From Hyphomicrobiaceae bacterium (GTDB taxonomy: Bacteria > Pseudomonadota > Alphaproteobacteria > Rhizobiales > Hyphomicrobiaceae): a DNA stretch of 64,000 bases. Position numbers and translations under genes: made by a program. The DNA is taken from NCBI GenBank assembly GCA_022844225.1, contig JALHMC010000012.1:25992-89991 (forward strand), read 5' to 3'. The stretch's first letter is position 1. Each line of letters begins with the position of its first letter. Under the pieces are notes generated by a model. It made no database searches and was not told where the DNA came from. It saw only the letters and a program-made list of their open reading frames with translations. Shown one piece after another: positions 51,342 to 54,088 of the stretch.

Positions 51342-51476
51342 TCACCACATCACCTTCGCCCCCAGCCCCGCGATCGCCGGATCGGCTGTCACGACCGTCA
51401 AGCGTTCGGTGAGGGCTTGGCCGACGATCATGCGGTCGAAGGGGTCTTTGTGGAGGCTTGGCGGCTCTGCCCACGG
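51342..51476 (-). pseudogene. Remnant of a VapC-type PIN toxin gene (C-terminal part only)
   Basis: Reading the minus strand down to the TGA at 51344-51342 gives LHKDPFDRMIVGQALTERL, then TVVTADPAIAGLGAKVMW. This is the C terminus of PIN-domain toxins: the H-x-D-PFDR-x-I-x-QA helix and the VTAD metal-binding strand. Upstream the frame stops after eight more codons (TGA at 51479-51477), and the DNA there is the leader of the CoA-transferase gene, so the N-terminal two thirds and any antitoxin are gone. It is not in the ORF track because no start remains. Confidence 0.78.
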
Positions 51477-51562
51477 TCAACGTCGGTTGCCTTCGCCGCC
51501 GAACCGGGCACAATGGGCCGGGACAACCGCAGCAACTCGCACCAACGCTTCGCAGAGACACG

Positions 51563-52264
51563 ATGGCCATCAACAAGATCGTTCAATCCATGGCCGACGC
51601 CATGGCGGGTATCAAGGACGGATCGACCGTGCTGGTCGCCGGTTTCGGCGCCGTCGGGCAGCCGAACCAGCTGATCGACGCGCTGACCGAGCAGGGCGCC
51701 ACGGACCTCACCGTCGTCTGCAACAACGCCGGCACGGGTCGCAAGGGCCTCGCGGGCCTGATGGCGGCGGGACGCGTGCGGAAGATCATCTGCTCGTTCC
51801 CGCGCTCGGCCGGGTCGGTGGTGTTCGAGGAACTGCAAGCGGCCGGCAAGCTCGAGCTGGAGCTGGTGGCGCAGGGCACGATGGCCGAGCGCATGCGGGC
51901 GGGCGGCGCCGGCATCCCGGCGTTCTACACGGCCACCGCCTATGGCACCTACATTGGCGAGGGCAAGGAAGTGCGGGAGTTCAACGGCCGCAAGTACATC
52001 ATGGAGGAGGCGATCAAGGCCGACGTGGCGTTGATCGAGGCGTGGCAGGCGGATCGCTGGGGCAACCTGCGCTACCGGACCAGCGCGCGGAACTTCAACC
52101 CCGTGATGGCGACGGCCGCGGACCTCACCATCTGCCAGACGCAGCATATCGTGGAGCTGGGTGCGCTCGGGCCGGACGACATCCACACGCCCGGCATCTA
52201 TGTCGACCGCGTGATCCACGTGCCCTACGGCGACCCGCCGCCGGCAATGAAGAACGAGAGTTGA
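51563..52264 (+). CDS. CoA-transferase subunit A (3-oxoacid CoA-transferase type)
   Basis: 233 aa from ATG 51563. It is the alpha subunit fold of family I CoA-transferases: KIVQSMADAMAGIKDGSTVLVAGFGAVGQPNQLIDALTEQG, TVVCNNAGTGRKGLAGLM, and the CoA-contact region GGAGIPAFYTATAYGTYIGEGKEVREFNGRKYIMEE. It pairs with the subunit B gene 154 bases downstream to exchange CoA between succinyl- or acetyl-CoA and a 3-oxo acid such as 3-oxoadipate or acetoacetate; the exact acid is not evident. The intergenic space contains a palindromic repeat. Confidence 0.94.
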   Translation: MAINKIVQSMADAMAGIKDGSTVLVAGFGAVGQPNQLIDALTEQGATDLTVVCNNAGTGRKGLAGLMAAGRVRKIICSFPRSAGSVVFEELQAAGKLELELVAQGTMAERMRAGGAGIPAFYTATAYGTYIGEGKEVREFNGRKYIMEEAIKADVALIEAWQADRWGNLRYRTSARNFNPVMATAADLTICQTQHIVELGALGPDDIHTPGIYVDRVIHVPYGDPPPAMKNES

Positions 52265-52278
52265 CGCGATAATCGGCC

Positions 52279-52394
52279 GAGTTCCCGGACGGAGCGCGAG
52301 CGAACGCGAAGCGCGAAGATCCGGGATCTTCCCCGGTCGAGATGGGTAAGGCCCCCGGATCTCGACGCACCTGCGGTGCGCTCCGTCCGGGGAC
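52279..52394. repeat. Palindromic intergenic repeat, family 2, copy 2
   Basis: GAGTTCCCGGACG ... GATCCGGGATCTT ... CCCCGGATCTCG ... GTCCGGGGAC, the same order as at 41829-41947. It sits inside the CoA-transferase A/B transcription unit and ends 24 bases before the subunit B ATG. Confidence 0.8.
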
Positions 52395-52418
52395 TCGGAG
52401 AAGAGTGGAGACATCCCG

Positions 52419-53108
52419 ATGACGACCGCCGCCGCAACTGCCGCCGCCGCTCCCACCGCCGACAACGTGCGCGGCTGGAGCCGCAAGGAGATGGCCAAGC
52501 GCCTCGCCGACGACATTCCGGAGGGCTGGTACGTCAACCTCGGCATCGGCATTCCGCTGGCCGTGGGCGATTTCATTCCGTCGGACCGCGAGGTGGTGCT
52601 GCAGTCCGAGAATGGCATCGTCGGCATGGGACCGCTGCAGACGGCGGACAATCTCGACACCTGGATCGTCAACGCCGGCAAGCAGAACGTGACGCTGCGC
52701 ACGGGCGCCTCGATCGTTTCGCACTCGGATTCGTTCGCGATGATCCGCGGGGGACACCTGGACCTCTGCGTGCTCGGCTCTTTCGAGGTCGCGGCGAACG
52801 GCGACTTCGCCAACTGGACGGTTTCGCTGAAATCAGTGCCGGCGGTCGGCGGCGCGATGGATCTCGCGGTCGGCGCCAAACGCATCTGGCTGATCATGGA
52901 GCACACGTCGAAGGACGGAAAGCCGCGCCTGCTCGAGACGTGCACCATGCCGCTGACGGCGCCGGGAGTCGTGAAGCGCGTCTACACGAACCTCGCCGTC
53001 ATCGACGTGACGCCAAAGGGCTTCGAGCTCGTCGAGATGAACCCCGAGATCACGTTCGAGGCGCTGCAGGCGCGGACCGGCGCGAAGCTGCACCGGAAGG
53101 CGGCGTAA
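52419..53108 (+). CDS. CoA-transferase subunit B (3-oxoacid CoA-transferase type)
   Basis: 229 aa. The beta-subunit active-site glutamate lies in VVLQSENGIVGMGP (S-E-N-G-x-x-G). Further family regions are WYVNLGIGIPLAVGDFIP, FAMIRGGHLDLCVLGSFEVAANGDFANW and TMPLTAPGVVKRVYTNLAVIDV. An Ala/Thr-rich N-terminal extension of about 15 residues precedes the conserved start. It works with subunit A immediately upstream, likely in ketone-body, branched-chain or aromatic acid catabolism. Confidence 0.95.
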   Translation: MTTAAATAAAAPTADNVRGWSRKEMAKRLADDIPEGWYVNLGIGIPLAVGDFIPSDREVVLQSENGIVGMGPLQTADNLDTWIVNAGKQNVTLRTGASIVSHSDSFAMIRGGHLDLCVLGSFEVAANGDFANWTVSLKSVPAVGGAMDLAVGAKRIWLIMEHTSKDGKPRLLETCTMPLTAPGVVKRVYTNLAVIDVTPKGFELVEMNPEITFEALQARTGAKLHRKAA

Positions 53109-53342: not shown

Positions 53343-53807
53343 TCAGACCGACGACTGAGCCTGAGCCTCGATCTGCTTCGGCGCACCGTTGCCGATGGAG
53401 ATCGTGCGGGGCTTCAGGCGCTCAGGCACGTTGCGCACCAAGTCGACGTGGAGCAGACCGTCCTTCATGTCGGCTCCTGTGACCTCGACGTGGTCGGCGA
53501 GCTGGAAACGACGCTCGAAGGCACGCGTGGCGATGCCACGATGCAGGAACTGCCGCTCCTTATCCTCGGGCTTCTTCTCGCCCTTGATGGTGAGGGACTG
53601 TTCCTTGACCTCGATCTTGATGTCGTCCTGGGAGAAACCGGCGACCGCCATGGTGATGCGGTACTGGCTCTCGCCCATGCGCTCGATGTTGTAGGGCGGG
53701 AAGGCCGGCACATCGGCGTCAGGACCGGAAACGCTGTCCAGAAGCTGGACGAGACGGTCGAAGCCAACGGTGGACCGATAGAGCGGAGCGAAATCAAAGG
53801 GTCGCAT
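53343..53807 (-). CDS. Small heat-shock protein, Hsp20/IbpA family
   Basis: 154 aa from ATG 53807 (MRPFDFAPLYRSTVGFDRLVQLLDS), with AGGAGG eight bases upstream; the ORF extension to 53966 covers the leader. The N-terminal FDFAPLYRSTVGFDRLV and the alpha-crystallin domain (YRITMAVAGFSQDDIKIEVKEQSLTIKGEKK, FLHRGIATRAFERRFQLADHVEVTGADMKDGLLHVDLVRNVPE) are of the IbpA/HspA class of rhizobia. It holds unfolding proteins as an ATP-independent chaperone. Regulation appears to be by a sigma-32-like promoter and a ROSE-type RNA thermometer. Confidence 0.97.
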   Translation of the reverse strand: MRPFDFAPLYRSTVGFDRLVQLLDSVSGPDADVPAFPPYNIERMGESQYRITMAVAGFSQDDIKIEVKEQSLTIKGEKKPEDKERQFLHRGIATRAFERRFQLADHVEVTGADMKDGLLHVDLVRNVPERLKPRTISIGNGAPKQIEAQAQSSV

Positions 53808-53812
53808 TGCAC

Positions 53813-53899
53813 ATCCTCCTGAGGAAGCGACGTGGTTCATGTTGCCGTCCCATCGCGGGCCCGGCAGCTTCAAGTGCGCACCCGAACGTGGCGTGCGCA
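53813..53899 (-). ncRNA. ROSE-type RNA thermometer candidate in hsp20 5' leader
   Basis: On the minus strand, three stem-loops occur in order: TGCGCAC/GTGCGCA (53899-53875, 7 bp perfect), TGCCG/CGGCA (53866-53843), then TCGCT-TCCTC-AGGA (53830-53817) in which UCGCU pairs with the AGGA of the Shine-Dalgarno, leaving a bulged G. The UYGCU...AGGA pairing close to the start codon is the conserved core of ROSE elements that melt at heat-shock temperature. The leader length (about 90 bases) and the hsp20 context fit. Structure is deduced by eye. Confidence 0.72.
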
Positions 53900-53905
53900 A
53901 ACGTG

Positions 53906-53933
53906 ATTTAGGGTGCGATCCGGCGGGTTCAAG
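53906..53933 (-). promoter_or_regulatory. Sigma-32-like promoter for hsp20
   Basis: Minus-strand CTTGAA at 53933-53928 matches the heat-shock -35 core. CCCTAAAT at 53913-53906 is a partial match to CCCCATNT at a suitable distance. A start just after it would put the first leader hairpin at the 5' end of the mRNA. Confidence 0.55.
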
Positions 53934-53946
53934 GGCCCCCTCAAAG

Positions 53947-54088
53947 GTCATCCCGGTGCTTGTCACCGGGATCCATCGCTAAGGTGGCGCGATGCGGGGA
54001 AATCGGTGCCGAGCCGCGGCGCCCTTGCCCGATCTCGGCCATCCGAATGCGTGGACGGATGGGTCCCGGGCACAAGGCCCGGGATGAC
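53947..54088. repeat. Long-armed palindromic intergenic repeat, family 1, copy 2
   Basis: The left arm GTCATCCCGGTGCTTGTCACCGGGATCCAT and the right arm (54059-54088, ATGGGTCCCGGGCACAAGGC...) are near-perfect inverted 30-base arms with an 82-base spacer. Same family and layout as 37834-37972, with a different interior. It separates hsp20 control DNA from the hydrolase stop. Confidence 0.8.

Follow-up and report, generated by a model that had tools for sequence, protein, structure and literature searches.

We identified a gene for a small heat shock protein, hsp20, together with a structured mRNA leader and a putative heat-shock promoter, within the window, the 64,000-nucleotide stretch of the Hyphomicrobiaceae bacterium genome that was analysed here. 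The features of this locus are:

53928..53933, minus strand: -35 box CTTGAA of an RpoH (sigma-32)-type promoter, from a motif pair in relatives
53905..53912, minus strand: -10 box CCTAAATC, from the same motif pair in relatives
53875..53899, minus strand: stem-loop I (GCGCACGCC...GGGUGCGC, with a bulged G), from fold and alignment
53843..53866, minus strand: stem-loop II, from fold and alignment
53810..53834, minus strand: stem-loop III, the proposed thermosensing hairpin, with UCGCU against the Shine-Dalgarno AGGA and a bulged G53828
53815..53820, minus strand: Shine-Dalgarno AGGAGG within stem-loop III, from sequence and fold
53343..53807, minus strand: hsp20, IbpA-type small heat shock protein of 154 aa, from Pfam and NCBIfam matches and family orthologs

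The product of hsp20 matches Pfam PF00011 (HSP20) with 76.4 bits, and its best NCBIfam match is IbpA at 154.7 bits, which lies below the equivalog cutoff of 212 bits. Orthologs were found in 95 of 103 Hyphomicrobiaceae genomes, and the relatives that carry names belong to Hyphomicrobium and other Hyphomicrobiaceae. The ATG start codon at 53807-53805 (minus) is backed by these relatives, which share the Shine-Dalgarno (SD) and mostly continue with ATGCGAC or ATGAGAC; an alternative in-frame ATG near 53840 is missing in the closest relative (L026). Downstream of hsp20, and convergent with it, lie the genes for subunits A and B of a 3-oxoacid CoA-transferase (pcaIJ/scoAB type; 51458-53108, plus). 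An intergenic palindromic repeat with GTCATCCCGG...CCGGGA as an inverted pair occupies 53947-54088. It is a member of a dispersed repeat family, the pattern being found 30 times in the genome and the reversed control pattern not once.

The pair CTTGAA-N15-CCTAAATC lies directly upstream of the hsp20 leader, and both boxes fit the RpoH1 consensus CTTGAA-N15-16-CCTATAT (PMC4843759). A similar pair was present in 81 of the 87 Hyphomicrobiaceae leaders that we read, the window included, with a spacing of exactly 15 in 76 of these, compared to an average of 2.6 in shuffled leaders. The position of the -10 box predicts that transcription begins at about 53899, the base of stem-loop I, which would give the hsp20 mRNA a leader of roughly 92 nt.

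A first-pass annotation, made by eye from the sequence, had described three consecutive stem-loops at 53813-53899, the last ending in UCGCU-loop-AGGA with the SD beside the hsp20 start, and had called them a ROSE-type RNA thermometer. Sequence and predicted fold agree with the three stem-loops, which we place at 53899-53810 on the minus strand, within a few bases of the earlier coordinates. The pairing in stem-loop III is also seen: 5'-CACGUC[G]CUUC-3' pairs with 5'-GGAGGAUGUG-3', G53828 is bulged, and UCGCU (53830-53826) faces the AGGA of the SD just 5' of the hsp20 ATG. ROSE elements are defined by a U(U/C)GCU box that pairs with the SD in the 3'-most hairpin (PMC3669281) and by conservation of a bulged G that faces the SD (PMC9450479), and both are found here, the latter as G53828. 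Moreover, the three hairpins fall within the two to four of ROSE elements, and the end of the element at 53810 adjoins the start of a PF00011 gene at 53807, which is the location expected of ROSE. The stability of stem-loop III (-10.0 kcal/mol) is slightly above the family mean (-9.0). Nearest-neighbour melting gave a mean unpaired value for the SD of 0.17 to 0.22 up to 55 C, with little opening and no switch temperature; since ROSE has been described as having non-canonical contacts (PMC9450479), which nearest-neighbour energies omit, nothing is drawn from this result.

The core of the element is conserved throughout the family. In all 87 leaders, a few bases 5' of the ATG, U[UC]GCU faces A[GA][GA]A; when the upstream sequence was shuffled and the SD kept, a mean of 2.2 and a maximum of 7 of the 87 leaders retained this core. 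An alignment of 51 leaders contains 24 pairs that are 88.5% formed across the leaders, and 17 of the pairs show changes on both sides, counts that include shared ancestry and so do not represent independent events. Read with the same limit, the helix of stem-loop I is 91% paired with compensatory changes in 7 of its 9 pairs, and every one of the 5 pairs of stem-loop II has compensatory changes among relatives. The covariation score of the 51 leaders was 0.396, compared to 0.171 with shuffled partners and at most 0.075 with slid partners. Pairs of the SD helix itself have changed jointly. For pair 84-108, the second outside the UYGCU box, the 51-leader alignment holds three forms, U-A, A-U and G-C, and the set of 87 adds C-G, the form of the window. 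The box UCGCU goes with the SD AGGA in 46 of the 51 aligned leaders, and UUGCU goes with AGAA in 4. The bulged G is invariant (51/51) in hairpins I and III and is found at the matching place of hairpin II in 45 of the 51.

The first-pass annotation had also proposed a search with the Rfam ROSE models as a check, and had regarded a covariance score below threshold as refuting its reading; such a score is what we obtained. The Rfam ROSE family RF00435 aligned with the window leader over its full length, but its score of 20.6 bits (E 2 when the entire library is counted) is below the gathering cutoff of 45 bits, and no part of the window reached the cutoff of any Rfam family. Because the RF00435 cutoff was passed in none of the 103 Hyphomicrobiaceae genomes, the low score is best read as a sign of the narrowness of the Rfam model and not of a wrong observation. 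The 21 sub-threshold RF00435 matches (E up to 1) in these genomes are all at hsp20 starts. Thus, the leader is not a member of RF00435 by the Rfam rule, and its features as read from the sequence identify it as ROSE-type in the published sense, in support of the first-pass reading. Other sub-threshold Rfam matches were set aside: a second RF00435 match in the same genome (19 bits; G000 C9, L002) lies inside an ABC-transporter ATPase frame and is attributed to chance, and the SorX and HIV-1_SL4 matches are weak, with SorX falling on the palindromic repeat.

A further covariance model, R1, was derived from the leaders of 51 orthologs, with the window and its genus left out. R1 gave 66.5 bits for the window leader, an E value of 2.3e-10 over a genome of 4.37 Mb, and this was the sole significant site, the runner-up (L116; 19.5 bits, E 1.3) having no hsp20 match nearby and being attributed to chance. 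R1 also detected leaders in records labelled Devosia, Rhodospirillales, Asaia and Ancylobacter. In a class sample of 289 genomes, 28 of the 29 matches inspected, the window's own excluded, precede an hsp20 start. The homologous Ancylobacter leader (L021) was scored by both models, with 62.2 bits for Rfam ROSE and 26.1 bits for R1, and so links the Rfam ROSE leaders with those of R1. In the record labelled Asaia bogorensis (L018, about 1940-2000), the sequence of the 3' ROSE hairpin occurs twice in tandem before the hsp20 ATG.

These results bear on the possibility that the hairpins arose by chance in a GC-rich leader. The folding energy of the leader is no better than that of shuffled sequences (z -0.46), which is what chance hairpins would give, and the Rfam score is sub-threshold; however, conservation in 87/87 leaders, compensatory changes and the unique match to the held-out R1 model are decisive, and chance is so improbable an origin that we give it practically no weight. 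Judged from the aligned sequences, the structure of the leader is beyond chance.

The inverted repeats might instead act in the DNA, as operators to which a transcription repressor binds, and have no role as RNA structure. Inverted repeats covary at the DNA level too, and ROSE itself was originally mistaken for an operator (PMC4166951). However, the third repeat arm here is the SD itself, the bulged G is asymmetric, and the stems change freely in sequence without losing their pairing, which a sequence-specific binder is not expected to tolerate; we regard an operator as hardly credible.

Another alternative is that the structure limits translation chiefly by offering a regulatory protein a place to dock, with melting secondary; the small heat shock protein, for instance, might act through the hairpins as a repressor of the mRNA that encodes it. 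In E. coli, IbpA represses its own mRNA through the leader, which lends some support to this idea. In addition, hairpins I and II, although distant from the SD, are conserved in their pairing as strongly as the SD hairpin, suggesting more than SD masking. Nevertheless, conservation is highest in the UYGCU box and in the bulged G with its position relative to the SD, as a thermometer predicts, and the two ideas are compatible. Docking as the main function is very unlikely.

We consider it very probable that the IbpA-like hsp20 mRNA carries a ROSE-type RNA thermometer in its leader, behind an RpoH promoter; from the sequence, the covarying pairs and the promoter motif we infer the use of RpoH, translational repression and melting with temperature. 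Under heat stress, RpoH would transcribe the hsp20 mRNA. At growth temperature, pairing of the SD with UCGCU in stem-loop III, interrupted by one bulged G, would block ribosome entry, and warming would loosen this imperfect helix so that ribosomes could start. Since the RpoH promoter adjoins the thermometer leader, transcription and translation would both be heat-controlled, giving the chaperone two layers of regulation.

The element resembles RF00435, the type of Bradyrhizobium japonicum hspA ROSE1, in that it lies in a small heat shock leader, its three hairpins align end to end, UYGCU stands opposite the SD with a conserved bulged G, and the bulged G of hairpin I is at the same model position. 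Unlike RF00435, the stem sequences have diverged here, and most relatives of the window leader repeat the bulged G in hairpin II (45/51). On sequence grounds it is a divergent form of the curated ROSE model and of a kind already known. The promoter differs as well, since B. japonicum ROSE1 lies behind a sigma-70-type promoter and the window leader behind an RpoH-type one. In this respect the leader, as far as its motifs indicate, is like the ROSE-like thermometers of E. coli and Pseudomonas ibpA; both an RpoH promoter and ROSE-type translational control have been shown for Pseudomonas putida ibpA (PMC3669281), although the Pseudomonas elements have two hairpins and not three. FourU thermometers, too, conceal the SD of a small heat shock gene in a leader hairpin (PMC4166951), but four uridines pair with the ribosome-binding site there, unlike the UYGCU with a bulged G seen here.

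Other heat-shock genes were compared as well. The second hsp20 of the same genome (G000 C20:25209-25643, minus; L005 1912-2006, minus, and L177) has a ROSE-like core, AAGGUCGCU...AGGGCUUU, before its ATG; 29 of 30 orthologs in the family retain this core, with an unusual AAGGRCUU SD region. The third hsp20 (L004) has no evident ROSE core and no R1 match, and rpoH of the same genome (L146) has no R1 match. One class-level R1 match (L139) precedes rpoH, and in the alphaproteobacterial family of that record (L147-L176) R1 matches were found in 29 of 30 rpoH leaders, 28 of them at E < 0.02; these leaders show compensatory pairs, but in an alignment that was made by fitting to R1 and is therefore biased in its favour. 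In 11 loci of this family the element abuts the rpoH start itself, a direct form that is also seen in Azospirillum sp. B510, A. thermophilum and A. brasilense Sp7 (L207, L208 and L209). In 17 rpoH loci that were read, the element abuts an ORF of 7-12 codons roughly 100 bases upstream, and 8 of the 17 ORFs end in Pro-Gly-stop.

A review ties ROSE without exception to genes for small heat shock proteins (PMC4166951). Another paper, however, already states that B. japonicum rpoH1 is controlled by ROSE (PMC4167512), and the link to rpoH therefore has precedent; our literature search found no report on ROSE-like rpoH leaders in Azospirillum or on a gated short ORF. On balance we lean towards the view that ROSE-type thermometers may be a regulon element of far greater extent in Alphaproteobacteria than the curated model suggests, covering two hsp20 genes in Hyphomicrobiaceae and rpoH elsewhere in the class; in some lineages the start that they gate would be that of a tiny upstream ORF and not that of rpoH.

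In conclusion, the reference RNA-family model misses the thermometers of a whole family, a gap that the 51-leader alignment would fix. The leaders also provide clear compensatory evidence for pairing of the SD helix in a ROSE-type element, with SD and anti-SD changing together in some of them. The ROSE-like rpoH leaders, including that of the laboratory strain Azospirillum brasilense Sp7, make it possible to test beyond E. coli whether temperature directly controls the heat-shock sigma factor. For the Hyphomicrobiaceae bacterium itself, our analysis predicts that the IbpA-like chaperone would be under two-layer heat control.
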